In this document: one piece after another, positions 1-60,918 of the stretch
How the letters are laid out: the number at the start of each line of letters is the position of its first letter
Position numbering within the stretch: the first letter of the stretch is position 1
From: Acholoe squamosa
Taxonomy: Eukaryota; Annelida; Polychaeta; Phyllodocida; Polynoidae
DNA: 64,000 nt
Assembly: GCA_949317995.1 (NCBI GenBank)
Contig: OX439050.1
Location: 4,216,001 to 4,280,000 of the forward strand
Direction of reading: 5' to 3'
Notes under the pieces: model-generated
Databases searched by the model: none
Told to the model about the DNA's origin: nothing
What the model saw: only the letters and a program-made list of their open reading frames with translations
Program-made: the position numbers and the translations under genes

Positions 1-237
1 TTGAATAAAATTAATGTTTTTTAAGTTTAAATCAATTACATCAGAAGGGGGACTTTGTCCATAAAACCAGTTTATTTTTTTAAATTCATTGTCTATAATG
101 CGATCCATATTTTTTAAAAGATTAAGAAGAAAACTGGTTTTTCCTGAATTACTAGGGCCTGCTATTATCATAGAAAATGGAGTTTTTAATCTCGCATCAA
201 TTAATTCTATGTCTTTAGTTTTAGTTTTTTCTACCAT
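1..237 (-). CDS. Packaging ATPase, N-terminal 79 codons (FtsK/HerA or A32-like), cut by window edge
   Basis: The minus-strand frame opens with ATG at 237 and stays open to position 1. A Walker A loop of the form GPSNSGKT sits about 30 residues in, preceded by hydrophobic residues (SMIIA) and followed by a Leu-rich helix, and then an aromatic stretch (INWFYG). This arrangement is typical of the genome-packaging ATPases of Polintons, adintoviruses and related viruses. Walker B and the sensor motif would lie left of the window. The start overlaps the end of the integrase gene by 17 bases in another frame, as in compact viral gene strings. Family assignment rests on Walker A and context only. Confidence 0.75.
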   Translation of the reverse strand, partial: MVEKTKTKDIELIDARLKTPFSMIIAGPSNSGKTSFLLNLLKNMDRIIDNEFKKINWFYGQSPPSDVIDLNLKNINFIQ

Positions 238-1219
238 CTTGTATCTTATTTAATTCTTGTGCATAAAAACTACCAGTAAGTATTTCATTGTTTTCATCTA
301 ATAATATATAAGTAGGTGGCCATGTTCTAAGCACAAAAGCTACTTGAAATATTTCTTTTTGCCAATTTGGCTTATATCCTTTAGTAAATGTTTTTCTTTT
401 AGTTGTGATTTTTACTTTATCTCCTACTGAGAAAGGAAGTTGTATTCTTCTAGAATGTAAATATGGTTTGTATTGTTTGTCCCAAATTATCTTTTGGTTT
501 TTTTCATCAACTTCAGAGGGGCTAATTCCTAGAGTACGATGTGGACTTTTATTGTAGCTAAGTACAATGTCTTGCAAATCATCGATATATCTCAAGCTTT
601 TTTTAAAGGTTAAAAATCGATGTATTTTATTTTGTATAGTTCTTATAAAACGTTCAACTATTGCAGCCTTTGTGTCTTGTGATGTGCTAAAAGAGTGAAT
701 ATTTTGGTTAATGAGATATTTCTTAAAAACACCCTTAAATTCACTACCTTCATCTACTTGAATAAGCCTAGGCTTGTGTTTTGCCCTAAATAATATAGCT
801 TTAAAGCCTATTAATGTTGTTTCTGCTTTTTTGTCTTTAAGAGGTTCTATGTAAGCATATCTGGAAAAGCAATCTATAGCAGCTAATAAATATGAAATGT
901 TGTTATTATATCGTCTAATTTGGAAAGTACTTATTAAATCTAACTGCCATTGATCATTTAATCCTTTTACAATAGTTTTTCGTCTTAAAAAGTTATATTG
1001 TATAGGTTTGTGTGAAGTATAAGTTCTAGTATTTTGTAAAAATATTTCAGCGTCTTTTAAAGTTATTTTTTTGTCTTTTTTTTTAGCAGATTTATATAAC
1101 TTTTTCACAGAACTAAAAGATGAAGGATGACTTGGGTTAAAGTAAATACTTTCAAACAACCTTTTTATTTCTTGGTTTCTTTTTATTTCTTCTTTTTTTG
1201 CCATATTAAAATTAAACAC
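221..1219 (-). CDS. Retrovirus-like DDE integrase of Polinton
   Basis: 332 residues. The catalytic core shows the D,D-35-E pattern: Asp94 in QWQLDLI, Asp156 in IQVDEGSEF and Glu189 in AAIVERF, with the usual SRYAYIEPL strand after the first Asp. The C-terminal third has a GDKVKI stretch followed by a WPPTYILLDENNE segment, matching the SH3/chromo-like tail of Polinton integrases. The enzyme would insert the linear element DNA into host chromatin, normally with a 6-bp target duplication. Met6 (MAKKEE) is an alternative start. All three catalytic residues are present and no frame break is seen, so the gene looks functional. Confidence 0.93.
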   Translation of the reverse strand: MFNFNMAKKEEIKRNQEIKRLFESIYFNPSHPSSFSSVKKLYKSAKKKDKKITLKDAEIFLQNTRTYTSHKPIQYNFLRRKTIVKGLNDQWQLDLISTFQIRRYNNNISYLLAAIDCFSRYAYIEPLKDKKAETTLIGFKAILFRAKHKPRLIQVDEGSEFKGVFKKYLINQNIHSFSTSQDTKAAIVERFIRTIQNKIHRFLTFKKSLRYIDDLQDIVLSYNKSPHRTLGISPSEVDEKNQKIIWDKQYKPYLHSRRIQLPFSVGDKVKITTKRKTFTKGYKPNWQKEIFQVAFVLRTWPPTYILLDENNEILTGSFYAQELNKIQDGRKN

Positions 1220-1837
1220 TTCTTAAGAATAAACATATAAAGATGTAAACATGTTATGTTTGAAACAGGTGCAGTCCTTAAAACAATAAAGCATGCATTT
1301 AACCCTCTTGTTTACTAACCATCTCATTACAATTCTTAAGTTATGTTTTACTTTTAACTAGTGTGCGATGGTAAATATGATTTGTCACATTTAGTACATG
1401 AAATGAAAACATTTATAAACTATGTTTGGAACAAATGCACGTATCCTGATGAATTAAAAGTAAAATTACATAAAAAAACAATGTTAGGATCTTAGTATTT
1501 ACACACCCAATAATAAGTTAATATCCTTAAGGACAAATACCAGATTCCTAACAACAACAACAAAGTATCATGATAGCGTATTATTTGATTTGTTCACTAA
1601 GCATTTCAATGTAGATATATGACATCAATAAACATCATTTAAAAGTACAAAATATCATTTCACTGAAAAAAAGAAACACAAAAAATAAACTTTTTAGGTT
1701 TAAACTAATATATAAGCAGCTAATACTTACTAAATATGAATTCTCTTTTACTATATACACAACTTGTTATAATAATACAAAATAATATTTTCAATACAGG
1801 CACATGAAAAAACATTTAAAAGCAAACAAGAAATATT
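1220..1837. other. Intergenic AT-rich stretch inside the Polinton
   Basis: This is the largest gap between Polinton genes. No minus-strand gene is evident. On the plus strand a short frame at 1361 to 1495 (44 codons, beginning GTG after a TTTTAACTAG that could be a 3' splice site) reads with a normal-looking composition, including YVWNKCTYPDELK. It has no ATG at its start and I cannot assign it. It could be a small opposite-strand gene, an exon or chance. Confidence 0.3.
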
Positions 1838-2377
1838 TTAAAGAATGACATCAACAGTTTTAGATTTTTTTGGATAAATATTTCCCTTTTTGCAACTTAT
1901 TTTAAGAGTAAGCTGTAGTGGCTCATTTGTCTTTTTTGTTAAATTTAAAACTGTATTGTTATCTTTACAAGCAGATGTGTTTTTACCTGTTTCCTTTTCA
2001 TTTTGGCTGTTGCTTAATGTAATTTTTTTACTTTTTTTTTCAGTTAAATCGATAATTTTGTTAGAAAGGAGATTACTTCTTTTTTTCAGATTTTTAGTAA
2101 TTATTTTTTTTTCTTTTTCGTCCTTTTTTTTAAAAGAATCTTTGCTCTTTGATTTTAATTTCTCCAATTCATATTTTTCATGACATGAATTACATCTAGA
2201 TGGGTGTCGACTAAAAAAATGAGCGGAATGTAAGGGTCTATGACAGCGGATACATTCTTTGTACATATTTTCATAACAAGGAATACAATATTTTTTTCCA
2301 GTTTTTAAGTCATCACAAATACCACAATATATACATAATTCGCCCATTTTAAATATATAAAAATATTTGGAAAACAA
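1838..2377 (-). CDS. Cys-rich zinc-binding protein of Polinton
   Basis: 179 residues. The first 70 residues hold a dense set of metal ligands: C15, C18, C21, C31, C34, C42, C45, H50, H53, C62 and C65, in repeated C-x2-C pairs including ECIRCHRPL and RCNSCHEKYE. The remainder is Lys/Ser/Asn-rich and probably disordered, with basic clusters such as KKRSN. I know similar small zinc-ribbon ORFs with a CxRCxRPL-like core from Polintons and take this as one of them; the role is unknown (nucleic-acid binding or transcription is an inference). Met11 (MGELC) is an equally good start, since the first ten residues look like leader. It lies between the integrase and the PC4-like gene. Confidence 0.6.
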   Translation of the reverse strand: MFSKYFYIFKMGELCIYCGICDDLKTGKKYCIPCYENMYKECIRCHRPLHSAHFFSRHPSRCNSCHEKYELEKLKSKSKDSFKKKDEKEKKIITKNLKKRSNLLSNKIIDLTEKKSKKITLSNSQNEKETGKNTSACKDNNTVLNLTKKTNEPLQLTLKISCKKGNIYPKKSKTVDVIL

Positions 2378-2457
2378 ACATTAAAAGTTGATTGTTTTTT
2401 AGCTAATTATGTTCACCTAAAGATGTCTATCCCACAGACTTTTTCTTAAAATTATTT

Positions 2458-2769
2458 TTAATCACTGTCAGAATTACTGTCTACATAGGAATTATCGCTA
2501 TCACTTTCATCACTGTCTCTTTTAACTGATGATTTACTTTTCTTTTTACCTTCATTTTTTGTTTCTGTTTCTTTAGGACTTTTAATCTTTTTTATTCTTT
2601 TTTCTATTTTAACCTTTAATTTTATAAGTTCATCATATTCAGATTTTTGCAAGCTCATATTTTTATCTTTAGTCATATCATGCAAATGAATATATTCTTT
2701 TCCTCTAAATCTAGTTATATCTATTCTCTTTTTTTTTCCAAAAGGAATGGTGTGAAATTTAGAAGCCAT
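2458..2769 (-). CDS. PC4-like ssDNA-binding/transcription cofactor
   Basis: 103 residues. Residues 8 to 55 follow the PC4/p15 pattern: a short strand, then KKKRIDITRFRGKEYIHL, then a loop and NMSLQKSEYDELIKL, which resembles the 'GKxxIDIREY...GISLxxxQWxxL' core of PC4 proteins. The C-terminal third is Lys-rich and then a Ser/Asp tail (DSDESDSDNS), also usual for PC4 relatives, although in PC4 itself the acidic Ser tract is N-terminal. PC4-like proteins occur in some Polintons and large DNA viruses and bind single-stranded DNA during transcription or replication. The next gene downstream on this strand is the Cys-rich protein; upstream is the polymerase. Assignment is by motif only. Confidence 0.6.
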   Translation of the reverse strand: MASKFHTIPFGKKKRIDITRFRGKEYIHLHDMTKDKNMSLQKSEYDELIKLKVKIEKRIKKIKSPKETETKNEGKKKSKSSVKRDSDESDSDNSYVDSNSDSD

Positions 2770-2990
2770 CAGAAGTAATTTCTTTTAAATTAATTTGTGA
2801 TTTCTTTGAAAATAGATTTTTAAAATATTAACTTTTAAGTGCTTAGAAATGATTTCTTTATGTTGATATAAAATACCCTGCTGTTTAGATCCAAAAGGTG
2901 AATTTCATTTGTTTTAAAACAGTACAACACAAGTAATCTCAAGTATATTTTCACTGTTCCATACACAATGTTATGCCTTTTTAGTTTAAT
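2770..2990. other. Short AT-rich spacer
   Basis: Spacer between the polymerase and the PC4-like gene. I see no gene or clear signal in it. Confidence 0.5.
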
Positions 2991-5900
2991 TTAAAATTTT
3001 TTTTTTTTTAAATTTACAGATGAATCAAAATATTTATGTCTTTTACGCACATTGATCATATGATTCCCATAAGCAAAAGATTTGATTCCATCTTTTTGTA
3101 GCCAACGTTTATCTTCAAAAGGTGAAAGAGCCAGTTTATTTTCTTTTATTACATGTACTTTATGATTGTAACTTCTCATAGCATGATATGATTCTCGATG
3201 AAATTTCTTTTTAAACAATACTTTTTTAAACTGGTCATGTCTCATATCTCTTATATTACTTTTTTTAACACCTTTTACTCTTTTTGTTTCTTTATTTGAT
3301 TCAAATAAAATAGAATACATCTTAGGACGTAAACCAATGAATTCTTTTATTTTTTTCCCCTCACTTTCATCCTTAAATTTTCCTAATACTCTACAATTCT
3401 CAGTACAGTGCAAGGGGTGATCTAGTTTAAGATTTGAAAAATCAAAATATTCTTTTATACTTTTCAGCTTTTCAATAAAATGTTCATCTTCTATAAAATA
3501 TATGAATGAATCTGTGTCTGAATATAACAAGTTAATAACAGATAAAGAAAAAGTAGGTAACATTACCTTATAATGGAACCAAAACATGTGCATTTTAGAT
3601 AATTCTAATATAGTAAATCCAAGATATATCGGCTTGTCCAAATATACTTGTTCTTTAACATTTTGTATTCCTACATAATCTTTGTCTAAAAAATACAAGG
3701 AATGAAAAGTAGGTTTTCGAATAAGTTTTTTACATTTAATTTTACATGAAGTAAGGGTTAAATTTTTCCTTTTTTTAACATTTTCCATGCATTTTCCAAA
3801 ACATGAATTAGTCATTAACTTAAAAAATGCTTTATCGAAAGAAGAAGTTGATTCTCTCCGTTTAGTGTTATTAAAGTCAATATATTTTTTCATCCAAGCA
3901 GATTGTTTAAAAGATAGAATTTTATGTATTTTAACTATTTTCATCCCTAATTTAAGGTATAGTTTTAAATTCTTATAGTGAACAACATAATTTTTTTTCT
4001 CTCTTAAATCACATATTAGCTTATTCCCACTTTTTTTGTATTTAATATTTAATTTATGTAATAAATCTTTAGCATATGGAGATAACTCATCATGAAATAT
4101 CTCTTTTTTTTCTGGAGCCAGTGGAAAATCATCATGCAAAAAATGTAAATGCTTTGGATACAATAAAGTAACTTCTAATATATAGCCTTCATCACTGTTG
4201 TTAGCTACTTCTAATACATTAAACTTAGAATAACTAGAAGACGGTAACCAAACAAAATCATGAGTGGGAAGTTCTTGACACATAGCATGGCCATAAAGAT
4301 TATTACAATCATAATAAACCAAATGTTGGGAATCGTTTTTTACTTTAACATATCGTTGTACAACGTTTGTAATACCTCCGCGTATACCTTTTTCAATAAA
4401 GTTATGTTTATCTATATCATCTAAAAGATCAAGCTGTATCTTTGTGTGTTTTAACATAGCCTGATAACTAAGAGATGGAGCAGTAAGGAATTTCGCAGGA
4501 TCTAAACCATAATTTTCTAAACTTCTTTCTCTAAAAGATTCAAATACATCGCATAATAGTAAAACATCAATTTTAAGGTATTCTTTTAAATAGCTTCCTA
4601 AAGATTTACAATTCAACAAATTAAACATTGTTTTAGCATGAGTGTAAGCTTCTTTAGATATATTTTCTTTAGTTAGCTTATTATAGAAATGGGATCTAAC
4701 AGGTAGATTTTTTTCTTTTAATTTTTCCCATGAATCTATGTAATCATAACACATAATTCCCTTTTTTATTACATAAGGTAATAATTCCTTTTTGGTTAAG
4801 TTTTTTTTGGTTTCTATGAAATTATCTACATTATTAGCAGCTAAAAGATCTGCCAAGTGTGACAAAGAGGCAGATAAAAATTGGAATGAATCTAAAAAGT
4901 AAAAATTTTCAAATTGTAAAGTTAAAAATTTTTCAGAAGATCTAGGAAGAACTCTTATATCATCATTTTGAATATATTTATAGAGCTTTTTTACTATAAA
5001 ATGTAAATCAAAATTCATAGCATTATGCATAACAATTGGTATTTTCAATGTGTCCATTCTAAGAGAAGAATGGCTTAAATTACATCTATTGCAAGCATAG
5101 TTAACATCTCGCCCCTTTCCTTCTCGACCTATATGGGCATGGTCCAATACTTTTTTAATTTTTTTATTTTTAAATGAAACATGACACAAATAACATTCTG
5201 TTTGTTCATGAATTCTGCCTATGTCTTCCATTGTTAAAAAAATCGGCTTCCTATTTTTATCTAAAATATGAGATATCTCTGCTCTTTTTTGATATAAGTA
5301 ATTCACAAATTTTTTTAAAACATAACGTCCTATATATAAAAATGGTGTCTGTGAATATTTCTCATACTTTGAAATTAAAACTGCACCTATAGCATTTAAT
5401 TTTTGTCTAGTTTTTATTGTGGTATTTCCCCTTTTAACGGGCACTTTTAATTTTTGATTAAATGTTTCAAAGTCTGCATATATGATAAAAGGGTTTTTAA
5501 TTTGTTTAGAATAATCTTTGTATTCAACTTTGCTTCCTTTTATGGGCATTATATATGATTGACCAAAGAAGCTATTATTGTCACAGGTTTTTTGGGTATG
5601 AAAAAGGAGATCATTTTTTTTTAAAAAAGAAGTTAAACATTTATGACAATAATATCTTGTTTTCTTATAAAAAAAGGGTCTAACAAACTTACTCATGTCT
5701 CTTATAAGCCAATAATGTTCCCGATATAGTAAAAGGTTAACATGATTTAAATGTTTTTCTTCATTAAAATTAGTAGAAATATACATAGGATATGGATGAT
5801 AATTTTCATTTTTATTTTTAAATATACCAAAAACATTTACAGTTATGTGGTTTTTTTCTTCAAATTTAGCTATTTGACCAAGTTTTACAGGAAAAGAAAG

Positions 5901-6482
5901 ACAAGATATATTTAAACTTTGCAAGTAAGGTAAATAAGTGCTTGCTCTGTTTGCATTTGTTTTACTTTTAAACAAGGCAGCTAATATGCTAAAAAGAAAA
6001 CATTTATTTCCTGCTCCTTTAATATTAAGCAATGATCTTTTCTTAAACAAAATACTGTCTATATCAGAAGGCTTATAGCCTCCCAAAGGATTATATCTAT
6101 AAATAGAAATTCGCAAACATATAATTTCTTTTAAAAACCATCCAGATCCTAGTTGAATAAAAGAATCAAAAAAAGCAGAAATGATTCTGATGGCTTCATA
6201 AACTTTTTCTTCTATAGATTTTACATTTAGAATTACAGCTACTGGACTTTGAAACCAAGGTTTTATTTCAAAATGTTGGTTAGTTTCTATTTTATATTTG
6301 GCTAAAAATGTATTAAGACCTAATTGGAACTTAACTCCACCATGCTTTAACATCCACTTTTTTATTTTAGATGTAACTCTGTTTGATATATATCTTAAAA
6401 AAAATTCTAAGTCATGATTATATATTTTAGGGACCAAATTATATTCTATTGCAATATTCCTGAAACCATTTCTTCGATTCAT
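2991..6482 (-). CDS. Protein-primed family B DNA polymerase of Polinton
   Basis: 1163 residues. From N to C: a Cys-protease-like segment with Cys161 (GNKCFLFSIL) and histidines near 247 and 256 (HVNLLLYREHYWLI), like the OTU-type region seen in some Polinton polymerases; a C2HC finger at about 279 to 300; exonuclease motif I at 335 to 339 (YADFE); an endonuclease VII/HNH-like insert at 430 to 468 (C430, C433, DHAH at 447 to 450, C464, C467); Exo II at 486 to 494 (MHNAMNFDLHF); Exo III (YLKIDVLLL, about 635); polymerase motif A (YYDCNNLYG, D725), B (KLMTNSCFGKCMEN, from 888) and C (YSDTDS, D989 and D991). All catalytic acidic residues are present. The chain would replicate the linear element from terminal-protein primers. 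Confidence 0.96.
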   Translation of the reverse strand: MNRRNGFRNIAIEYNLVPKIYNHDLEFFLRYISNRVTSKIKKWMLKHGGVKFQLGLNTFLAKYKIETNQHFEIKPWFQSPVAVILNVKSIEEKVYEAIRIISAFFDSFIQLGSGWFLKEIICLRISIYRYNPLGGYKPSDIDSILFKKRSLLNIKGAGNKCFLFSILAALFKSKTNANRASTYLPYLQSLNISCLSFPVKLGQIAKFEEKNHITVNVFGIFKNKNENYHPYPMYISTNFNEEKHLNHVNLLLYREHYWLIRDMSKFVRPFFYKKTRYYCHKCLTSFLKKNDLLFHTQKTCDNNSFFGQSYIMPIKGSKVEYKDYSKQIKNPFIIYADFETFNQKLKVPVKRGNTTIKTRQKLNAIGAVLISKYEKYSQTPFLYIGRYVLKKFVNYLYQKRAEISHILDKNRKPIFLTMEDIGRIHEQTECYLCHVSFKNKKIKKVLDHAHIGREGKGRDVNYACNRCNLSHSSLRMDTLKIPIVMHNAMNFDLHFIVKKLYKYIQNDDIRVLPRSSEKFLTLQFENFYFLDSFQFLSASLSHLADLLAANNVDNFIETKKNLTKKELLPYVIKKGIMCYDYIDSWEKLKEKNLPVRSHFYNKLTKENISKEAYTHAKTMFNLLNCKSLGSYLKEYLKIDVLLLCDVFESFRERSLENYGLDPAKFLTAPSLSYQAMLKHTKIQLDLLDDIDKHNFIEKGIRGGITNVVQRYVKVKNDSQHLVYYDCNNLYGHAMCQELPTHDFVWLPSSSYSKFNVLEVANNSDEGYILEVTLLYPKHLHFLHDDFPLAPEKKEIFHDELSPYAKDLLHKLNIKYKKSGNKLICDLREKKNYVVHYKNLKLYLKLGMKIVKIHKILSFKQSAWMKKYIDFNNTKRRESTSSFDKAFFKLMTNSCFGKCMENVKKRKNLTLTSCKIKCKKLIRKPTFHSLYFLDKDYVGIQNVKEQVYLDKPIYLGFTILELSKMHMFWFHYKVMLPTFSLSVINLLYSDTDSFIYFIEDEHFIEKLKSIKEYFDFSNLKLDHPLHCTENCRVLGKFKDESEGKKIKEFIGLRPKMYSILFESNKETKRVKGVKKSNIRDMRHDQFKKVLFKKKFHRESYHAMRSYNHKVHVIKENKLALSPFEDKRWLQKDGIKSFAYGNHMINVRKRHKYFDSSVNLKKKKF

Positions 6483-6532
6483 TATCTGAGTTTACAACGG
6501 CGAAAGTGAAGTACTACAAATACTTTGCCATA

Positions 6533-7459
6533 CTAAAATTTTATAAGTTTTCCTTGGTCATCAACTATTTCTATTTCTATTTCGTGTATCTCAGACATTT
6601 TAACTTTTTTATAATAGGGAGAAGTAAATATCATTTTAAAATCTTCTCCAAACAAGCCATTACATCTTATAACTCTTAAAAGAGGAACTTGAACATTTCC
6701 AACAACTTCATTAGAAACTATATTGGTATATAAATAAATATTTGAAGAACGAGAACTTAAAGAAGGTACTCCTGTTGCTTTATAAGAAGCATAATGTTTA
6801 TGTATTTTTTTTTGAAATAATAAATTATTATAATCATCTATGGATTCTAAAGGAAGACCATAGTAACCTGTTACTTTTGAATCAGTTTCATCTTTAATAC
6901 CTCCTTCTGCATTTGTTAAGCAAAGAATATCAGACAAAGAGGAAGGCATCCACACAGTATCTCCCCTTGCTACATGTAAAACAGGCTTTAAATTTTCTTT
7001 TTCTATACTAATGTAAGGCTCTCTAGCCAAATGAAAAAAATCTAAATTTTTTTCAGCTAACTCTATTGATTTCATTAACTTATTCATTACATCTATATAA
7101 TTCTCTATATTACCATAATTTCCATATGGCATCATTTTAGTGTGAAAGCTCATGTCTGTTCTAACAGTGTCTATTTCTCCTTCTTCTAATACATGTAATT
7201 CATCATTGACCCCCATTTCTTTTCTGTAAATAGCAAAAGTTCGATCTTGTGGAGGATCCTGTGGAATATTGTACCAGGATACAGGAAGGTTTATTTCTAC
7301 TATGGCCACCTCCCAATGACCTTCTAAATGAAATTTTCCAGGAATTTCTACAAAAAAATGACTTGTTTTATTAATCCGAGATGAATGAATAGTATTAGAA
7401 GGTAGAGTAACATAAAAATCATCTGAGTGAGCCATTTTTTGTTTACCCATAAGCTTCAT
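6533..7459 (-). CDS. Polinton-associated 'FYVTLPSN' protein
   Basis: 308 residues. The N-terminus has the motif DFYVTLPSNTIHSSRIN, followed by F-x-V-E-I-P-G-x-F-x-L-E-G-H-W-E-V-A-I-V-E and PVSWYNIP. The C-terminus has SSNIYLYTNIVSN, VGN, VPLLRVI and an 'IEIEIVDDQGKLI' end. This layout is a recurring family that I know from invertebrate Polintons, next to the polymerase gene. Its function is not established; a beta-rich virion or fibre-like protein is an inference. The start may be Met9 (MAHSDDF), since the first eight residues add nothing to the pattern. It ends 50 bases before the polymerase start and begins 22 bases after the RING-like gene, consistent with one transcript. Confidence 0.7.
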   Translation of the reverse strand: MKLMGKQKMAHSDDFYVTLPSNTIHSSRINKTSHFFVEIPGKFHLEGHWEVAIVEINLPVSWYNIPQDPPQDRTFAIYRKEMGVNDELHVLEEGEIDTVRTDMSFHTKMMPYGNYGNIENYIDVMNKLMKSIELAEKNLDFFHLAREPYISIEKENLKPVLHVARGDTVWMPSSLSDILCLTNAEGGIKDETDSKVTGYYGLPLESIDDYNNLLFQKKIHKHYASYKATGVPSLSSRSSNIYLYTNIVSNEVVGNVQVPLLRVIRCNGLFGEDFKMIFTSPYYKKVKMSEIHEIEIEIVDDQGKLIKF

Positions 7460-7481
7460 TTATTTTTAATCTCATTTTGGT

Positions 7482-8372
7482 TTACATTAACTTGTTTTTT
7501 ATGTGACGATTTATGCTAGTTTCATACTCATTTAAACATAGAGCTAAATGATCTGTGGTGTATTTCACCAGGTAAGTAAAATTTTCTCTTTGGTTCCATT
7601 TCAGAAACATAGCATCACAAACAGGATTCCCATTAAACCATTTCATGTGACAAAATGGACAATTGATTTCTAAATTAATCACAACTACTTCACCATCATT
7701 TTTGGTATATTTTAAATGACAATGAACCACACTTGCGTAGCAATGCTTATGAATAGGTTTGCCACAACATATTGTGTATTCTATATTACTTTCATGTTTT
7801 TTGCTTACAAGAACTAGCCTTCTACATAAAGCACATCCCAAATACACATTACTGTAAAATAAACGTTTTTCTCTCACTTTTTCTTTTATTTTACTTTGAA
7901 GCCTTGAAGAGGCATACTGTCTTGTGCCTTTACGTTTATTTTTATTTTTTATGAGATGAAATATTGCTTCTTCATTGTAACCAACAAGATCACTTATAAA
8001 TTTACATATTTCTTTAGTAAAAGAATGATTCTCTCCTAATAAGATACTGGATGTGATTAAAACTCTAGCAGCTTTAATTTCCTCTTGTATTATCATATTT
8101 TTGATTTCTGAGAACATAAAATAACATTGGAAATAATGAGAAAAATATACAAGAGCTTCTGTTTTAATGTTTGATATGTCAATGAATTCGTCAGATAAAA
8201 CAGAAAATATGTTAGAACATTCTTTGGCACTCATAAACGTTTGATTTGGTATGCTCACATTTAAGCAAATTTTAAATTTCTGCATATTTGAAGTAACATT
8301 GTTAAAAGAGGACAAACATGAAATGTACTCTACTCTTTCTTTAAGCAGCTCTATGTTCACATCAAGCAACAT
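7482..8372 (-). CDS. RING-like zinc protein, paralogue A
   Basis: 296 residues, not recognised as a named protein. The first 140 residues are helical, with an SAKEC motif near 48 and a pattern like a BTB/adaptor fold, which I cannot prove. A basic hinge (KNKNKRKGTR) follows. The C-terminal half has a treble-clef or RING-like ligand set: C180-x2-C183, C202 C203, H208, H210, C211, C218, C238-x2-C241, then the signature MKWFNGNPVC. The gene at 9436 to 10266 has the same architecture and the same closing CC-G-x-P, C-x2-C and W-F-x-G-x-P motifs, so the two are paralogues. An E3 ligase or nucleic-acid-binding role is inference from the finger only. Confidence 0.7.
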   Translation of the reverse strand: MLLDVNIELLKERVEYISCLSSFNNVTSNMQKFKICLNVSIPNQTFMSAKECSNIFSVLSDEFIDISNIKTEALVYFSHYFQCYFMFSEIKNMIIQEEIKAARVLITSSILLGENHSFTKEICKFISDLVGYNEEAIFHLIKNKNKRKGTRQYASSRLQSKIKEKVREKRLFYSNVYLGCALCRRLVLVSKKHESNIEYTICCGKPIHKHCYASVVHCHLKYTKNDGEVVVINLEINCPFCHMKWFNGNPVCDAMFLKWNQRENFTYLVKYTTDHLALCLNEYETSINRHIKNKLM

Positions 8373-8738
8373 AGTTACATAGATAAATACAAGTTTAAAT
8401 ATGATAAAATGCTTAACAAATGATTATATTACCTTAACCCTTTCTACCATGAGAACTTGTATCCTAACTTATTTATTTTTATATTGTTTATCAAAGCTGT
8501 TTTAATGGAGCTGTACAAACTAAATTCTAATTTATCTATACCTCTATAATAACTAAAAAACCTTTAATTTTACATGTACTTGTTATACTTTACAAATATC
8601 AACTAAAATTAAACCAACTTTACAACAAAGATAAGAAGAAAAAATCTTTTATCTTATTTCATTAAGTGGTTTACAAAAGAAATCTATCCTATCTAATATC
8701 AGATTTCTACGTATTTCAGTATATTTTTTGTTTTGAAA
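8373..8738. other. AT-rich spacer; holds the former 3' end of the neighbouring RING-like gene
   Basis: No intact ORF here. Next to the LTR element, the minus-strand frame of the 9436 gene resumes at 8738 and runs to a TAA at 8649 to 8651, about 30 codons. It is the displaced original C-terminus of that gene. The remaining 8373 to 8648 shows nothing that I can name. Confidence 0.65.
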
Positions 8739-8743
8739 CTTAG

Positions 8744-8963
8744 TGTAGGGGCAGTAATTCCCTGTACTCGGTGGCAGACCCCCAGGGGCGGGTCTCCGGG
8801 TAATCACTGCCCCCTAGTGTGTATCATATCGATCCAGGTGTGGATGGAAGGTGGAAATGTCAGGCCAGGGGAAGTAGCTCAGAGGAAGAGCAGCCGCTTC
8901 GAAGTTGGAGGGCCCCGGGTTCGAGTCCCGGTTTCTCCAAGAACATTTTCACCGACCTCTACA
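8744..8963 (+). repeat. 5' LTR of the TRIM-like element
   Basis: 220 bp, TG to CA. The first 75 bases form a near palindrome (TAGGGGCAGTAATTCC against GGTAATCACTGCCCCCTA). The 3' part carries the tRNA-like unit at 8868 to 8939, followed by 24 bases to the LTR end. No TATA box is obvious. Confidence 0.85.
8868..8939 (+). tRNA. tRNA-like unit in 5' LTR (probably non-decoding)
   Basis: 72 nt with class I tRNA layout. Acceptor GGGGAAG pairs with TTTCTCC over 7 bp (two G-U); D stem GCTC/GAGC; T arm CCGGG/CCCGG around TTCGAGT; discriminator A at 8939. Box A (TAGCTCAGAGG) and box B (GGTTCGAGTCC) match polymerase III consensus. The anticodon arm is weak: about three of five pairs, and CGA at positions 34 to 36 in a molecule without the long variable arm of Ser tRNAs. 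It therefore looks kept for transcription and its 3' end rather than for decoding. Confidence 0.6.
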
Positions 8964-8964
8964 G

Positions 8965-8982
8965 TGGTGGAGAAACCGAGCA
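8965..8982 (+). other. Primer binding site complementary to the element's own tRNA-like unit
   Basis: TGGTGGAGAAACCGAGCA starts one base after the 5' LTR. A CCA-tailed transcript of the LTR tRNA-like unit would end CCCGGTTTCTCC-A-CCA. The first 14 bases of the site are perfectly complementary to that end, including the added CCA and the discriminator, and 15 of 18 overall. Confidence 0.75.
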
Positions 8983-9220
8983 TCCTAATACAATCAGATT
9001 GAAGATATGTGTGCCTGCTCATGTCTTAACACAATCATGGATTGAGGACTCGGGAACTGGGCCGATATGATACAGATGACGCTTCGACCAATCCGGTAAT
9101 TGTACTGGTACATCCACTGGGAAGTCAGGAGTGCCCTAACACTGCTTGATAAAGCCTCAATTTCCAGGTAACTGGTTTGAGGGGGAATGCCTGGTGCTGG
9201 TGGATGGTGGTTGAAGCTGA

Positions 9221-9230
9221 TGGGGAGGAG
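9221..9230 (+). other. Polypurine tract
   Basis: TGGGGAGGAG directly precedes the 3' LTR, in the place and composition expected of a plus-strand primer. Confidence 0.7.
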
Positions 9231-9450
9231 TGTAGGGGCAGTAATTCCCTGTACTCGGTGGCAGACCCCCAGGGGCGGGTCTCCGGGTAATCACTGCCCC
9301 CTAGTGTGTATCATATCGATCCAGGTGTGGATGGAAGGTGGAAATGTCAGGCCAGGGGAAGTAGCTCAGAGGAAGAGCAGCCGCTTCGAAGTTGGAGGGC
9401 CCCGGGTTCGAGTCCCGGTTTCTCCAAGAACATTTTCACCGACCTCTACA
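9231..9450 (+). repeat. 3' LTR of the TRIM-like element
   Basis: Same 220 bases as the left LTR with no difference that I can find. On the minus strand its end supplies the last codons and stop of the interrupted RING-like gene. Confidence 0.85.
9355..9426 (+). tRNA. tRNA-like unit in 3' LTR (probably non-decoding)
   Basis: Identical copy of the unit at 8868 to 8939, carried by the right LTR. Same intact acceptor, D and T arms, same A and B boxes, same weak anticodon arm. Confidence 0.6.
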
Positions 9451-10266
9451 CTTAGCATAAAGAGGGGTGCAAGTAGGTTTTCCATCAAACCAAGGAATAA
9501 AACAGTTTTTACATCTTGCAACCCTTTGGTTTTCAACATAAGAGGAAAAATATTGTAAAAATTCGAGACATCTTGTTTTACTTGGGCTCCCACAACATTG
9601 CATATATGTTATTTTAGATAATGCTCTTTTTCTGTTTGTCCTGTCTGCTTTGTGAAATCTTCCACAAGATGCACAACAATAAGTTAAAAATCTCAGGCAA
9701 TTGTTATATATCATATGGGCTATTTTTATCTTTTTTTTAAGTTTTTTCACATGTTTATATTGAGTAAATTTCCTTTTCCTAATAGTCATAGTTAATGCAG
9801 TAGTTTCGCTATAATTATCCTCAGAGTCTTTCATACATTCAAGGATTTCATATACTCGAGGTACTCTTAAAAAATCAGCCGCAAACCAAATCATTTCTAA
9901 AGAAAACTTGTGAAATTCTCCCATAAAGAAAATAGCCATTTTTATAACGCAAGGAACTTCTTCCACGTTATTTATACACCGACTTTTTATATATTCATAC
10001 AAGAAATCACTTTGAAAAAAAATTGCAAAAAAAACAATACTTTTGATATCTCTAATATCATTTAAAAGAATGTGACATAATTCATCTTCTTCTGATAAGG
10101 TCATCATTAAATAGGAGCATTCAGAAATATTCATATATTTTATAGCAGGTATTTCTAAGCTAAGCTCTTTCCTTTGTTTACCATAAAAAGATTGATAGCT
10201 TTTAAAATAGTGACATCTTTCATACAACAAAGAACTATCTAAATCTATTTCTATAAAACTATCCAT
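9436..10266 (-). CDS. RING-like zinc protein, paralogue B, C-terminus replaced by LTR insertion
   Basis: 276 residues as it now reads. Layout matches paralogue A: a helical N-terminal half with NISEC near 46, a basic hinge (RKRKF, KKLKKK), then ligands C198-x2-C201, C224 C225 (QCCGSP), C233, C252-x2-C255 and IPWFDGKPTC. The last four codons and the stop come from the TRIM LTR end at 9436 to 9450. Past the element the old frame continues at 8738 for about 30 codons to a TAA at 8649, and that stretch aligns with the tail of paralogue A. The finger itself is untouched, so the product may still fold. The start is 2 bases from the stop of the gene before it, supporting cotranscription. Confidence 0.7.
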   Translation of the reverse strand: MDSFIEIDLDSSLLYERCHYFKSYQSFYGKQRKELSLEIPAIKYMNISECSYLMMTLSEEDELCHILLNDIRDIKSIVFFAIFFQSDFLYEYIKSRCINNVEEVPCVIKMAIFFMGEFHKFSLEMIWFAADFLRVPRVYEILECMKDSEDNYSETTALTMTIRKRKFTQYKHVKKLKKKIKIAHMIYNNCLRFLTYCCASCGRFHKADRTNRKRALSKITYMQCCGSPSKTRCLEFLQYFSSYVENQRVARCKNCFIPWFDGKPTCTPLYAKCRGR

Positions 10267-10268
10267 GG

Positions 10269-10457
10269 TTAGTCTTTTATTTTATCGCATAAAATGATGC
10301 TTTCTTCTATACAATTCGGGAGATGGTTATTGGGGAACACTTTACAAGTTACTTTCTCTTTTTTTTTTAAATATTTTTTTGTGTTTAAATTACATTGAAA
10401 TATTTTTTCATTAAGTTTTTTTTTATCAATGAAACGTAAAATATCATCAATATCCAT
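10269..10457 (-). CDS. Small unrecognised Polinton protein
   Basis: 62 residues, Lys-rich, with DDILRFIDKKKLNEK at the start and four cysteines (C22, C38, C49 and C57). The stop is immediately followed by the start of the RING-like gene, and 31 bases separate it from the 385-residue gene upstream, so it fits the gene string. No family recognised. The tight packing is the main reason to accept it. Confidence 0.5.
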   Translation of the reverse strand: MDIDDILRFIDKKKLNEKIFQCNLNTKKYLKKKEKVTCKVFPNNHLPNCIEESIILCDKIKD

Positions 10458-10488
10458 AAGATTTTAAAGATGAAAAGTTTTTTAACTG

Positions 10489-11646
10489 CTACTTGATTTT
10501 ACTTTTAGGTCCTCTTCGTCCTTTAGTACCTTTAATTAAAGGAGGTGTGCAATGTAAAAAACAACATGCACATCTGTTTATATTATCTGGTAAAATATTC
10601 CTTAAAAATACTTCTGCGTGACTCTTTATTCTATCGCATATAGCTATAGTCCTTTCCAAATTTGCTCTGCAAGTATCTGTTTGTGGTTCAAATAAAGTAG
10701 ATGTTGGATTAAATTCAGATAGTTCTTTTACCTGATGGCTTACTGATAAAGGAATTTTTATCTTTTTATTTTGAACTTTATTTTTAAAATCAGTAATTTC
10801 TTCCTCACTTAAATCATCATTGCTGTCTGATAAAGTTTTGCTAACTTTCTTTCTTTTTGGAAGAGAATGTGTTCCTTTTATATCTTCTTCATTACTGTCA
10901 CTTTCTTCTAAATCTTTATGTAAAATACCTAGTAATTTTTGCTGTGATTGAATGAAAGCAGGGTGATCTTTTTTTTTTACTGGGTCATTGTCACTCTCAC
11001 TTTCTGTAGAACTGTTTTGCTCTGAAGAGGATGGTCGCTGTTTAATGTTAGACCGGCTTTTATTTTTGTCTTTTAATTTTAATTGAGAAGTGGACGTGAT
11101 GCTCTCTTTTTTACAAGAATTAAAAGAACTTAAAGCTGAATCTGACAATTTTTCTAAAGAAGGCATATGATACAATTCATCATTTACTTTTTCTACTAAT
11201 GAAGTAAAAAAGTTGAAATACAATGAAAGTCCTTTCCCTGGTTTTAAACTCTGTTTTGAGCTTCTGTATTCTGAAGATTTATCGTGGCTGTAATAAAAAA
11301 TGATATTTATTTGGAGAATTTCAACCAAACATTTTATCAAAATACTTTCTGAAGAAGTTATATCTTTTATTATACCATTATTTTCTCCGCATAAAACCTC
11401 ATAAAATTGTCTAATTTTTTTATTTTTTTTAATGTAAGAATGAAGAGACGATTTAGTTTCCTGAATTAAAGGATCTATGTAAGATTCTTTGTTGTGATGA
11501 TACTTTTTATATAGGTGATGCAAAGCAAAATTTAAGTTATGTTCTTCACATAAATGAACCCTGTCCCAATATTCTGTATTGCTAGGAGTATCCTCTAATA
11601 AATAAACCAGTATCACCCTTAATAAATTATCTATGACAGAAGCCAT
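10489..11646 (-). CDS. Unrecognised 385-residue Polinton protein, acidic Ser-rich middle
   Basis: The first 155 residues are predicted helical and globular (LLRVILVYLLED at the start, ESILIKCLVEILQINIIFYY near 130). The middle, about 190 to 290, is a low-complexity Ser/Glu/Asp/Lys region (SSSEQNSSTESESDND, EESDSNEEDIKG), probably disordered and a phosphorylation target. The C-terminus has a Cys cluster, RCACCFLHC, and a basic tail GTKGRRGPKSKIK. The late Cys-rich plus basic end suggests nucleic-acid contact; that is inference. I considered an OTU-type protease for the N-terminal part but find no Cys/His catalytic pair. Located between two other unknown genes in the same string. Confidence 0.65.
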   Translation of the reverse strand: MASVIDNLLRVILVYLLEDTPSNTEYWDRVHLCEEHNLNFALHHLYKKYHHNKESYIDPLIQETKSSLHSYIKKNKKIRQFYEVLCGENNGIIKDITSSESILIKCLVEILQINIIFYYSHDKSSEYRSSKQSLKPGKGLSLYFNFFTSLVEKVNDELYHMPSLEKLSDSALSSFNSCKKESITSTSQLKLKDKNKSRSNIKQRPSSSEQNSSTESESDNDPVKKKDHPAFIQSQQKLLGILHKDLEESDSNEEDIKGTHSLPKRKKVSKTLSDSNDDLSEEEITDFKNKVQNKKIKIPLSVSHQVKELSEFNPTSTLFEPQTDTCRANLERTIAICDRIKSHAEVFLRNILPDNINRCACCFLHCTPPLIKGTKGRRGPKSKIK

Positions 11647-11690
11647 GAATTAATTTATTATTAAAATATAGTTTACAGAGAACCTTAGCT

Positions 11691-12317
11691 TCATATAACT
11701 TTCTCAACAAGATTGCATAAAAACAGAAATTGATTTATATCTTTAGTTATACAACTTCCAGTAAAAGTGTGAGTAAAAGAAAAAGTTGTTCCTTTATTTT
11801 TTATTCTAAGAGAAGAAAACCTAATAGCATCAAAAGATTGCTTTGAGTTTAATAAGTTATGGTTTATTTCCAACCATATTGACTCATATGAATTCGATTC
11901 TTTAACTTCTATGCTATAGCCCTTTTCTAAACTTGACACTATTTTAAAGCAAAAATCATGAAATTTAATTCCTTCTTTAATTATAGTAAAAGATATTTGA
12001 ATATTTACAATGTCTAAACTGTATTGAATTATATTATCTTTGCTGTATTTTTCAAAAAAATTAATGCATGAGGAATAAATAAAGTCTTCTATCTTAGATA
12101 AAATACGAGGGATACTATTTTTTATAAATATATAACAATAATTATTTTTAGTAAATTTTAAAGTGTAATCTTTTTCAGAGTACACTATAGAACCTCTATA
12201 AGAAGAAGAATTCACCACCTCTCTTTGAAATGAAAGTATGTCAAAAGATGACTTAGGTAATGCTGTTAATCCTAACACAACTAGATGGGTAGAATAATCT
12301 ATAGGCATTGAAAGCAA
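11691..12317 (-). CDS. Unrecognised 208-residue Polinton protein
   Basis: Alternating hydrophobic strands and few charged clusters, with Phe/Ile/Ser-rich composition. Two halves look loosely alike: a strand-rich part ending near 95 and another ending SLRIKNKGTTFSFTHTFTGS plus ITKDINQFL. The second pattern recalls the closing strands and helix of TBP-like repeats, but the similarity is weak and I do not call it. Met4 (MPIDYS) is an alternative start. Nine bases separate it from the gene upstream, so it is part of one string. Confidence 0.6.
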   Translation of the reverse strand: MLSMPIDYSTHLVVLGLTALPKSSFDILSFQREVVNSSSYRGSIVYSEKDYTLKFTKNNYCYIFIKNSIPRILSKIEDFIYSSCINFFEKYSKDNIIQYSLDIVNIQISFTIIKEGIKFHDFCFKIVSSLEKGYSIEVKESNSYESIWLEINHNLLNSKQSFDAIRFSSLRIKNKGTTFSFTHTFTGSCITKDINQFLFLCNLVEKVI

Positions 12318-12326
12318 GCCTAAAAT

Positions 12327-23166: not shown

Positions 23167-24750
23167 ATGATCTCAAAAAAAGTTTTCCTCGTCTGTCTTA
23201 TATACAGTACCTTATACACGGTTTATCAAAACTGTTCACCAAACTTTGTGATTAGCCTTTTAGACAACCGTCTACCATTAGTGGCCCTACCACGACCTGT
23301 CACCCCTTCACACAACACAGAGACACCAGTTTATAATAACACCATTAGTGTCCCTACCACCACCTCTCCTGTCACCCCTTCACACAACACAGAGACACCA
23401 GTTTATAATAACACCATTAGTGTCCCTACCACCACCTCTACTGTCACCCCTTCACACAACACACAGACACCAGTTTATAATAACACCATTAGTGGCCCTA
23501 CCACCACCTCTACTGTCACCCCTTCACACAACACACAGACGCCAGTTTATAATAACACCATTAGTGTCCCTACCACCACCTCTCCTCTCACCCCTTCACA
23601 CAACACACAGACACCAGTTTATAATAACACCATTAGTGGCCCTACCACCACCTCTACTGTCACCCCTTCACACAACACACAGACACCAGTTTATAATAAC
23701 ACCAGTAGTGTCCCTACCACCACCTCTCCTGTCACCCCTTCACACAACACAGAGACACCAGTTTATAATAACACCATTAGTGTCCCTACCACCACCTCTC
23801 CTGTCACCCCTTCACACAACACAGAGACACCAGTTTATAATAACACCAGTAGTGTCCCTACCACCACCTCTACTGTCACCCCTTCACACAGTGTCCCTAC
23901 CACCACCTCTCCTGTCACCCCTTCACACAACACAGAGACACCAGTTTATAATAACACCATTAGTGTCCCTACCACCACCTCTACTGTCACCCCTTCACAC
24001 AACACACAGACACCAGTTTATAATAACACCATTAGTGGCCCTACCACCACCTCTACTGTCACCCCTTCACACAACACACAGACACCAGTTTATAATAACA
24101 CCATTAGTGTCCCTACCACCACCTCTCCTCTCACCCCTTCACACAACACAGAGTCACCAGTTAATAATAACACCATTAGTGTCCCTACCACCACCTCTCC
24201 TGTCACCCCTTCACACAACACAGAGACACCAGTTTATAATAACACCAGTAGTGTCCCTACCACCACCTCTACTGTCACCCCTTCACACAGTGGCCCTACC
24301 ACCACCTCTCCTGTCACCCCTTCACACAACACAGAGACACCAGTTTATAATAACACCAGTAGTGTCCCTACCACCACCTCTACTGTCACCCCTTCACACA
24401 GTGGCCCTACCACCACCTCTCCTGTCACCCCTTCACACAACACACAGACACCAGTTTATAATAACACCAGTAGTGTCCCTACCACCACCTCTACTGTCAC
24501 CCCTTCACACAGTGGCCCTACCACCACCTCTCCTGTCACCCCTTCACACAACACAGAGACACCAGTTTATAATAACACCATTAGTGTCCCTACCACCACC
24601 TCTCCTGTCCCCCTTCACACAACACAGAGACACCAGTTTATAATAACACCATTAGTGTCCCTACCACCACCTCTCCTGTCACCCCTTCACACAACACACA
24701 GACACCAGTTTATAATAACACTGTGGTGTAAAATATCCTCACCACCCTAA
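23167..24750 (+). CDS. Mucin-like secreted protein ORF of 24-residue repeats
   Basis: From Met at 23167 the N-terminus looks like a signal peptide (MISKKVFLVCLIYSTLYTVY). Then follow about 20 copies of a 24-residue Thr/Ser/Pro unit (VPTTTSPVTPSH + NTETPVYNNTIS), some shortened to 11 to 13 residues. Units contain NNT sites for N-glycans and dense Thr for O-glycans, as in mucin tandem repeats. Near 24607 one base is missing relative to other units (CTGTCCCCCTT for CTGTCACCCCTT), which shifts the frame for the last units and gives an unrelated tail. The first unit also lacks five bases. The repeat array is certain; the exact protein is not. Starting the frame further upstream at 23128 would add 13 residues before the signal-like stretch. 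Confidence 0.5.
   Translation: MISKKVFLVCLIYSTLYTVYQNCSPNFVISLLDNRLPLVALPRPVTPSHNTETPVYNNTISVPTTTSPVTPSHNTETPVYNNTISVPTTTSTVTPSHNTQTPVYNNTISGPTTTSTVTPSHNTQTPVYNNTISVPTTTSPLTPSHNTQTPVYNNTISGPTTTSTVTPSHNTQTPVYNNTSSVPTTTSPVTPSHNTETPVYNNTISVPTTTSPVTPSHNTETPVYNNTSSVPTTTSTVTPSHSVPTTTSPVTPSHNTETPVYNNTISVPTTTSTVTPSHNTQTPVYNNTISGPTTTSTVTPSHNTQTPVYNNTISVPTTTSPLTPSHNTESPVNNNTISVPTTTSPVTPSHNTETPVYNNTSSVPTTTSTVTPSHSGPTTTSPVTPSHNTETPVYNNTSSVPTTTSTVTPSHSGPTTTSPVTPSHNTQTPVYNNTSSVPTTTSTVTPSHSGPTTTSPVTPSHNTETPVYNNTISVPTTTSPVPLHTTQRHQFIITPLVSLPPPLLSPLHTTHRHQFIITLWCKISSPP
23296..24728. repeat. Coding minisatellite, 72-bp unit
   Basis: Unit GTCCCTACCACCACCTCTCC... of 72 bp, about 20 copies, with higher-order variants (ATTAGT or AGTAGT, GTCCCT or GGCCCT, CACAGAG or CACACAG) and internally deleted 33-bp forms. 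Two of the three forward frames stay open for most of its length. Confidence 0.9.
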
Positions 24751-26238: not shown

Positions 26239-29200
26239 AAGAAAATGGATACAAAATGTTGGGGAACACCAACTAGAGATCGTATATTTGGCAATGCTAG
26301 AAATACAGGACTTGACATGCTTGGATTATACCCGAAAAGTCATTGGAAAGATGAGGGTATGACAGGTGGAGTAAAAACAATGGCTATGCTGGCTTGGCAA
26401 ACCGTGCGGATCGCATGCACTTACAAAATGTCTTCTCCTGGATTAATTCTGGGGTTATCAAGTAAGAAATTAATACATAATGGATGAATAAGTGCGTTAA
26501 ACGCATTAATGCAATGTACATTAATAACTTATTACTTTTATCTACTTACAGCTCGTTGTGATGTGTCCACAGTGGTTAATGCTAACTTGGAGCTGCCACC
26601 ACAGGCGGTCACTGTTGTACAGGACCCCAGTGTAGACTCACTATACAGGTAGGCATTTATATATAGGTATTCAGAGTTAGCAGGTCGCCGCATGGGTGCC
26701 GCCATTACTGGAGCTTGTTACCAGCGAGTTCTACTGATAAGACATTTCAGATGGGTACCAGTCGGCCCCAAGAGGACCGCAGTGAATCGTTGGGGTTATC
26801 TCATTGGCTAATAAATAATCCTGCTAAGTCCGTATAGGGTAGAGGCACCCACCTTGGTTGCTCCTGGCCACACAGGAGGTCGCTGTATTTGGTGCTCAAA
26901 TCTTGCACCTTTAAATGTGGTCAGTGGCAGATCCAGGATTTGGAAAAGGAGGGGGCACACCCGCTATGTTTGGGCAAATTTTTGGGGTCCAAATATATAT
27001 AGTTAAACTTCTAATTACTGGGAAAAAGGGGGGGCGCCCCTCTAAATCCACCACTGGTGGTAAATTCTACTTTTGACCAGGTGATATATGATACGTTACT
27101 GCCAAAGAGGTTTTGATGATACTTTCCAATACATATGAATAAATGAGCTGTACATATTTAGTCTCCAAAACATCAAATTGCACCTCAGGTTGGACAGTTC
27201 ATGCCAGAGTTGACCCTAGAGTCAGACGCTATGTTATCTACATGATACCGACACAATGGGTCACTGTATCTGAAATATCCTATACAGTATAGCATATAAC
27301 ACTAAGGAATCCAAGCTAATACAATACTCATCTCCAGGATACTCTCAGATGTTTGATTCTGCATACCTGTAACAAGTCAGTCAACAGGTTCAGATGACAT
27401 GACTTCTATGGACAGTTGGAGTAGTAATTAGATTTAGGTATTAGAGAGCAGGTAAACCAAACACAGATTAAATATCCCTATCTGGGAGTACATGTATATT
27501 ATAGAAGATTCTATTTGTGATGAAATATCCATTGTAATAGTATTTAAATCATGATATAATTGTGTCCAGGGTGGGGTGTAATTGGTGTCTGACTGTAGGT
27601 GTAATCTGAAGGTCATATAAGAATAACTCCCATATTGTAACATGAGAAATGTATTCAGGTTTGTCAAGTCAAATTACTAGCAAAAGTATGTACATTGCCA
27701 TTAACATGTTTAGCGATCCTATAAATATGAATGTTAAGACATGACAAATTGAGAAATCAAACCAGGATCTCCATTCACTCACCTTTCTTCATCCTCAAAA
27801 TATAGCAAAAACACCCTGGGTTTGCACAGCCTAAAACCATGTGCGACTGGAGTTTTATATTTTATTCCTCATTTGTTAGAGAGTATGATACTTGAATTTT
27901 CATGTCTTATTCAAATGATAGCTGAATTCTTAATATCTATTATGTAATCCAATGCAAAAGGTGTGCGACTTTCGGTGTCTGTCCAACTCAGGGTGACTCT
28001 ACCCTAAGTCATGAGGCAACGTCTGGAGACAAATAAGGTTTTGAGTGCAAATCTTACAGAACAAATCTAGCAGTGATTTTTTGTATAACATTGTACCACA
28101 CTACATATCTGTAGAATCAAAATCTTGTTGCTTGACATCTGTATTGCCAGCCTTGCTTCAGGATCCCGGGGGATACTGACCCTGTGAAACAGCAGCCCCC
28201 CTTTTCTTTGGTCATTTCACAGCCCCCTAAAAAGCCAAAAGCCATTGCTCCGTAGTTGGGGTAATGTCAGTGAGGCCATGTTGGTGACAGGAGATGTCAG
28301 GCCAGGGGCTGTAGCTCAGTGGTAAAGCACTCGACTTGCAAGTTGAGATTCCTGGGTTCGAATCCTTGTGTCTCCAAAAGTTTTCATCGACCTCTACATT
28401 GTCATATATATGCTTCTCTCTTTTCCCACTAGGTGTCAGGAGGCGTGCCTGGACCCTGTCGGTAGTTCAGGTGTGCTGGGACCAGGGGGCACCACGTGTC
28501 ATGGCGGTATATTCTATAATGCTACCAGGAGGTGAGTATGTATGGATATGTCAATATATGTATATGGCTTGATTTAAAGTTTCAGAAGATTATTTTATTT
28601 GGACTTTATTTACAAAAGTGCATTTTCCCACTGACACAATGGTCAATACCCCACATCACCTTCACTTTCTTTGTGTATTGTCTACCAGTGAAGTAGAGTA
28701 TAGAAATGGCGGCTGATATACACCTTGGACATGGTCCATAAGTTCTGCTCAGAGCACCCTCTTGGCTCCATAGGTTCGATGCCGCCATCTCACTTATAGA
28801 TGTAGGAAAGCGATCCCGAAGAACACCTATTCATATACTGGGCACATAACAGTAATAGAACTTTAACTTAATAAGTGTTGGACACACATTTTCCAACAGG
28901 TGCTTACTGACAAGTTATGGCAGCCTGTATGAACATGCACAGAGCCACCTAGCGGGAAATGACAGTACCAGTGGGGGACCAGTGGAGTTTGTCAGTTTCT
29001 ACAATACACTTATTTGTTACTCTACCACAGCACCAGGTTAGTGGGATTACTGTGTTTATCATTGTATAAAATGTACCTTGCATACACTGTCAGACCGCGG
29101 CAAGCGTTCTGCAGTAGATTGTTTCTGTTAAACAGTGGTAGTTGCTATCAGTACAAATCCAATAATCCAATGTGGGTTGCACTGTACCAACTACAGTGGT

Positions 29201-60081: not shown

Positions 60082-60918
60082 TGCCATCAAACCTACACCA
60101 CACTCATGCAGTATACATCAAACCTACAGCACACTCATGCAGTATACATCAAACCTACAGCACACTCATGCAGTATACATCAAACCTGCACCACACTCAT
60201 GCAGTATACATCAAACCTACAGCACACTCATGCAGTATACATCAAACCTACAGCACACTCATGCAGTATACATCAAACCTGCACCACACTCATGCAGTAT
60301 ACATCAAACCTACAGCACACTCATGCAGTATACATCAAACCTACAGCACACTCATGCAGTATACATCAAACCTACAGCACACTCATGCAGTATACATCAA
60401 ACCTGCACCACACTCATGCAGTATACATCAAACCTACACCACACTCATGCAGTATACATCAAACCTACAGCACACTCATGCAGTATACATCAAACCTACA
60501 GCACACTCATGCAGTATACATCAAACCTGCAGCACACTCATGCAGTATACATCAAACCTACAGCACACTCATGCAGTATACATCAAACCTACAGCACACT
60601 CATGCAGTATACATCAAACCTACAGCACACTCATGCAGTATACATCAAACCTACAGCACACTCATGCAGTATACATCAAACCTACAGCACACTCATGCAG
60701 TATACATCAAACCTACAGCACACTCATGCAGTATACATCAAACCTACAGCACACTCATGCAGTATACATCAAACCTACAGCACACTCATGCAGTATACAT
60801 CAAACCTACAGCACACTCATGCAGTATACATCAAACCTACAGCACACTCATGCAGTATACATCAAACCTGCAGCACACTCATGCAGTATACATCAAACCT
60901 ACAGCACACTCATGCAGT
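60082..60918. repeat. 31-bp minisatellite, about 27 copies
   Basis: Unit ATACATCAAACCTACAGCAC plus ACTCATGCAGT. Variants are CCTGCAGCAC, CCTGCACCAC and CCTACACCAC. Because 31 is not a multiple of 3 and the unit lacks stops, all three forward frames read through; these ORFs are not genes. Confidence 0.95.

Follow-up and report, generated by a model that had tools for sequence, protein, structure and literature searches.

Helenus elements of Acholoe squamosa with primer binding sites that match and vary with a tRNA-like unit in their own LTRs: a putative self-encoded primer

The window analyzed here is a 64-kb stretch of the Acholoe squamosa genome. A 707-bp non-autonomous LTR element with an internal region of 267 bp is located at 8744–9450, and no open reading frame of at least 150 aa was found inside it. 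Its features are collected in Table 1, together with two related lone LTRs. As claimed in an earlier interpretation made from the letters alone (the sequence-only reading), the two 220-bp TG...CA LTRs are identical, a purine tract directly precedes the right LTR, and the primer binding site (PBS) starts one base after the left LTR. An 18-nt LTR stretch (8820–8837 and 9307–9324) has an inverted counterpart (89%) at 9057–9074 in the internal region.

Table 1. Coordinates in the window of the element, its parts, and the related lone LTRs
Feature	Position	Strand	Basis or remark
Target site duplication CTTAG (left)	8739–8743	+	5 bp in the window copy
Left LTR, 220 bp, TGTAG...CTACA	8744–8963	+	220/220 identical to right LTR
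tRNA-like unit in left LTR (putative primer gene), 72 nt	8868–8939	+	ARAGORN, Rfam RF00005, stem pairs
A box-like TAGCTCAGAGG in left unit	8875–8885	+	Sequence; box motifs as given in PMC10886601
B box GGTTCGAGTCC in left unit	8918–8928	+	Sequence
TTTT, likely Pol III terminator, 6 nt 3′ of left unit	8946–8949	+	Only T4 run of the LTR
Spacer base, LTR to PBS	8964	+	
PBS TGGTGGAGAAACCG	8965–8978	+	14/14 to CCA-tailed 3′ end of own LTR unit
Polypurine tract GGGGAGGAG, directly 5′ of right LTR	9222–9230	+	
Right LTR, 220 bp	9231–9450	+	220/220 identical to left LTR
tRNA-like unit in right LTR	9355–9426	+	ARAGORN, Rfam RF00005
TTTT in right LTR	9433–9436	+	
Target site duplication CTTAG (right)	9451–9455	+	
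Lone LTR, related family C (approximate; 5′ boundary uncertain)	28203–28398	+	Unit 28305–28376, ending TTGTGTCTCCA
Lone LTR, related family B (3′ boundary uncertain)	32448–32653	+	Unit 32555–32626, ending CGGAAAGTCCA

Minus-strand frames surround the element (block 221–12326); they include an integrase core (PF00665) and a 1166-aa PolB-like frame, for which the best named match was the PolB of a house spider adintovirus (37%). This block is probably an integrated adintovirus/Polinton-like element. One minus-strand frame (9436–10281) ends inside the right LTR. A host short-chain dehydrogenase (SDR) gene with at least seven exons is located on the minus strand at 47246–50338; when its spliced sequence was searched, the best 15 of the 120 matches listed (of 1016) had 54–72% identity, and named animals among those listed reached at most 44%. 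Long tandem arrays are present at 23296–24721 (72-bp units), 32887–33240 (22 bp), 60085–60920 (31 bp), and 63517–64000 (33 bp).

The units of the window LTRs matched Rfam RF00005 (47 bits, E 2.6e-8) and were called tRNA-Ser(CGA) by ARAGORN. The 72-nt tRNA-like unit described earlier for each LTR, which combines A and B boxes and intact acceptor, D, and T arms with a weak anticodon arm, is confirmed: read at fixed coordinates, 7/7 acceptor, 4/4 D, and 5/5 T pairs are present, and 3/5 pairs in the anticodon stem. When folded freely, the window unit formed the acceptor, D, and T arms and a different middle hairpin. The folding energy was dropped as evidence, being thermodynamically unremarkable (z −1.1), as was the lack of TTTT in the internal region, which was shared by half of the shuffled sequences. 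Across 64 distinct units, which were chosen by their A and B boxes, the mean number of stem pairs was 5.9/7 for the acceptor and 4.4/5 for the T arm, and 3.2/5 for the anticodon arm (59 units); TTTT was found no more than 25 nt 3′ of the unit in 57 of the 64. The nearby T-runs and the well-kept acceptor and T stems fit a gene for a mature tRNA-like primer. Selection for priming over decoding, which had been proposed from the weak anticodon arm, is plausible, and the weaker anticodon stem supports it loosely.

For copies of the window family, the LTR was used as a query against the 1.48-Gb host assembly, which yielded at least 45 matches (40 scored of 2329 candidates); copy numbers are lower bounds. 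The 30 loci best matching the window LTR were fetched, a biased sample that included 13 simple full-length copies (the window copy among them). Single LTRs were present at L016 and L026, and L017/L018 and L019 are two compound places. The PBS was the same in 13/13 simple copies, and the internal region equaled that of the window copy in 10/13. The LTR pairs were identical in 12/13, a count biased by the choice of the best LTR matches. Window-family copies have moved recently. Target duplications of the simple copies were 4 bp in nine cases, 5 bp in one (the window copy), and absent in three, and the lone LTR L026 also had a 4-bp duplication. The 5-bp duplication CTTAG of the sequence-only reading is thus correct for the window copy but an exception and not a family trait, the usual length being 4 bp. 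A 5-bp duplication as the mark of a Copia partner was rejected on the same counts. At L017 and L018 (C6, ~71.638 Mb) and at L019 (C5, ~15.732 Mb), LTRs in both orientations lie close together in compound arrays, which perhaps arose by integration into or beside own copies.

The window element belongs to Helenus (TRIMp3), a group of TRIMs with tRNA-like LTR sequence that has been described from fungi, animals, and one plant (Kojima 2024, PMC10886601). According to that survey, Helenus elements are short (311–1263 bp) and have two LTRs, no protein genes, and, in animals, 4-bp target duplications; the LTR contains tRNA-derived sequence including A and B boxes, and the internal region is bounded by a PBS and a polypurine tract. 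All of these are shared by the family studied here, except that the window copy has the longer duplication. The difference lies in priming: host tRNA primers and no unit/PBS complementarity are reported there, whereas here the unit and the PBS match and change together. In the survey, priming by the LTR unit was raised as an idea and rejected for the families covered, no PBS having matched its own LTR unit, and Pol III transcription was expected but not proven (PMC10886601). Cassandra was the TRIM cited in the sequence-only reading; the right known family is Helenus. In Cassandra and Ajax, too, the LTR of a TRIM harbors a small RNA gene that has Pol III signals, as described in PMC10886601, but theirs is derived from 5S rRNA, not from tRNA, and would not give a CCA-tailed tRNA primer. 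No 5S rRNA was found in the window LTRs, where RF00005 was the only Rfam family matched.

The sequence-only reading had predicted that the CCA-tailed end of the unit would be perfectly complementary to the first 14 bases of the PBS and to 15 of 18 overall. Comparison of the window PBS with the reverse complement of its own unit plus CCA gave exactly these values (14/14 contiguous and 15/18) and 17/20 over the longer stretch, the mismatches being at PBS nucleotides 15, 17, and 18. At all positions and on both strands of the 64-kb window, the PBS was the sole 14-base run to this target, and the next longest run was 11. In retroviruses, each round of copying tends to replace the PBS with a new copy of the primer sequence, and such overwriting would keep the PBS and the unit matched. 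Copying in the retroviral style would, however, predict 18 matching bases and not 14; either the copying stops earlier here, or the detail differs.

The LTRs of the window family (A) align with those of families B and C. Three acceptor pairs differ between the A and B units on both sides with the pairing kept. Among the loci examined, there was no full-length copy of family C. The family B LTR, used as a query against the host genome, gave at least 41 matches (40 scored of 963 candidates), and 30 loci were fetched. Type B was first seen in L057 and L059, which are old family B copies with an interior and were found by the LTR, not by the PBS pattern described below; their PBSs (TGGTGGACTTTCC in L057 and (C)GGTGGACTTTCC in L059) are complementary to the unit end of B, not to that of A. 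A second full-length Helenus element, of family E, was found beside an A copy (L012). Over 187 bp its LTR is 83% like that of A, but the head differs. The interior has diverged from that of A, with 78% in the 3′ part (175 bp) and 16 bases in common at the PBS. The left LTR of family E is followed by C and then by TGGTGGAGAAACCGAGTTGG; the PBS, TGGTGGAGAAACCG as in the window copy, matches its own unit (CGGTTTCTCCA) at 14/14. Since family E is of type A and its interior is related, it speaks for maintenance of the match but does not count as an independent case of coupled change. The same copy has a further LTR-like head in its interior, ~295 bp before the right LTR.

Coupling between unit and PBS was followed through the genome with a PBS pattern in which 11 PBS bases were free, including the diagnostic ones, and C was demanded where the window subfamily has T. 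Bases 17, 18, 20, and 21 were demanded, and their constancy therefore proves nothing; base 15 was left free. The pattern yielded 26 matches and none in the reversed control: 23 of type A, two of type B (L081 and L079, the latter being the same place as L057), and one of type F (L077). To read the ends of the own units, a constant distance from the B box was used, not the best match. A left unit could be read in 25 of the 26 elements, and its type equaled the PBS type in 25/25; at L080, only the right unit was readable, again with agreement. The comparison of each binding site with the unit of the same copy, which had been put forward as a check in the sequence-only reading, thus gave 26/26 agreements over three types in the part of the genome's copies covered. 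The right-LTR readings of eight elements (L065, L066, L067, L073, L075, L078, L084, and L089) fell on unrelated sequence and were not used. Against their own PBS, 14 of the 25 left units matched at 11/11, 10 at 10/11, and one at 6/11 (L079, decayed; its right unit matched at 9).

The unit ends in ...TTTCTCCA in type A (PBS GGAGAAA), in ...AAAGTCCA in type B (PBS GGACTTT), and in ...TGTTTCCA in type F (PBS GGAAACA). Four PBS bases differ between A and B, exactly at the unit differences, and two between A and F. When PBSs and units were crossed, PBS A matched the A unit at 14/14, PBS B matched the two own units of L081 at 13/14 and 14/14 and the own right unit of L079 at 12/14, and PBS F matched the own left and right units of L077 at 13/14 and 12/14, respectively. 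Pairings between types gave 8–12/14. The closest of these, PBS F with the A unit (12/14, run 7), equals in count the drifted right unit of L077 (run 11). Type F has one full-length copy (L077), both units of which have drifted (10/11 and 9/11); the F-like unit of the lone LTR L071, ending CGGTGTTTCCA, predicts the L077 PBS at 14/14, and a lone LTR at L080 has a drifted F-like unit ending TTTGTTTCCA. Four type-A elements (L073, L078, L084, and L089) have A instead of G at PBS base 14, a change mirrored by the own left unit in L089 and not in the other three. Base 15 was A in 26/26 elements whatever the unit, and the coupled stretch therefore extends to about base 14. Common descent links the copies within a type; the 26 agreements are therefore not independent, and about two independent coupled changes are visible. 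The proposal that the element may bring its own primer draws sequence-level support from this coupling.

The coupling bears on the view published for other Helenus elements (PMC10886601), in which the unit is a promoter only; the PBS match would then be due to chance or be a hitch-hiking relic without function. This is hardly credible here, as three types match, and the chance of the coupled bases would be ~1/256 for A–B and 1/16 for A–F.

Priming of each type by a host tRNA (e.g., tRNA-Ala isoacceptors), with the LTR unit derived from the same tRNA, is unlikely but has more in its favor. G3:U70, a mark of tRNA-Ala, is kept in all three window units (A, B, and C). In a list of ordinary animal tRNA ends, a proxy for the host's own tRNAs, tRNA-Ala came out best for all three types, with 12/14 (run 9) on PBS A, 10/14 (run 7) on PBS B, and 11/14 (run 7) on PBS F, and an insect-type tRNA-Ala tied with the own unit on PBS A over 18 nt (15/18), with a contiguous run of 9 against 14. 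An ordinary tRNA can have the exact end of A: tRNA-Ala(TGC) ending GGTTCGAGTCCCGGTTTCTCCA was found in two IMG/VR viral contigs (L001 and L002, seven tRNA genes each) with its last 22 bases equal to those of the A unit, and no relation of these contigs to the host was evident. Scans of IMG/VR with the LTR and the PBS pattern revealed no related elements, and the match L003 was without a tRNA. Host tRNA primers are also what is reported for the published Helenus families (PMC10886601). On the other hand, three host tRNAs would be needed, each having its last 11 bases equal to the LTR unit of the family that uses it, and the tRNA-Ala ends of the animal list lack the diagnostic bases. As the A, B, and C LTRs align, the unit ends appear to have diverged within the element lineage and not to have been captured repeatedly.

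Coupled change would also follow if the two sequences paired within the element RNA, since the 11 complementary unit and PBS bases are close together in one molecule. In such a hairpin, the 3′ strand of the left unit would pair with the PBS ~28 nt downstream, serving packaging, dimerisation, or Tf1-like self-priming with no free tRNA. We regard this as quite improbable. The TGG at the PBS start fits an added CCA and is unpaired in the LTR, where the window unit is followed by AAGAAC, not CCA; it was seen in 13/13 simple copies and in L012 and L057, with CGG in L059, none of which were chosen by PBS. As TGG has no DNA partner 3′ of the unit, a CCA-tailed RNA is the best explanation for what it pairs with. 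The T-run that follows 57 of the 64 units is tRNA gene-like, which also speaks against a hairpin.

From the sequence evidence, the LTR unit is probably processed like a tRNA and then used to prime reverse transcription of the element that encodes it. The unit would be transcribed by RNA polymerase III from the tRNA-like gene of the LTR (A box, B box, and T-run terminator), the transcript would be trimmed at both ends, and CCA would be added by the host. The last 12–14 nt of the CCA-tailed unit would anneal to the element's own PBS and be extended by a reverse transcriptase from an autonomous LTR element. This partner is presumably Gypsy-like, to judge from the 4-bp length of most target duplications. 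The full-length template RNA may be produced by Pol III read-through past TTTT or by Pol II. These proposed steps follow what is established for tRNA genes transcribed by Pol III and for RNase P, RNase Z, and CCA addition. On balance, it also seems likely that the lineage no longer borrows host tRNAs and that the binding site and its own primer gene form a locked pair, with a private priming code for each type.

A matching tRNA-like RNA can reportedly prime: an MLV vector with an impaired PBS is reported to have been rescued by an engineered tRNA-like primer (Lund 1997). That system differs in being engineered and retroviral, with the primer supplied in trans. In Tf1-type self-priming, the genomic RNA primes with its own 5′ end, whereas a separate tRNA-like RNA is predicted here. 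What the two have in common is that the element supplies its own primer (Tf1-type self-priming is named in PMC6934838). The biv-TRIM of bivalves is also an animal TRIM, and its authors were unable to assign it a canonical PBS without ambiguity (PMC6934838). A Gypsy element of Culex, cqgypsy_1, shares tRNA sequences at an LTR/PBS boundary but differs in that two tRNAs have been inserted next to its PBS (PMC3286476). In full-text literature searches, mostly at the title and abstract level, no report of a self-encoded tRNA primer was found.

To our knowledge, LTR retroelements are understood to start copying either from a host tRNA or from their own genomic RNA. A self-encoded, matured tRNA primer, if true, would be a third way to start copying, and the tRNA-like units of Helenus would gain a function beyond promoter activity. 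Such an element could escape both the host's choice of tRNAs and defence by tRNA fragments, and its types would offer a natural covariation system for the co-evolution of binding site and primer.
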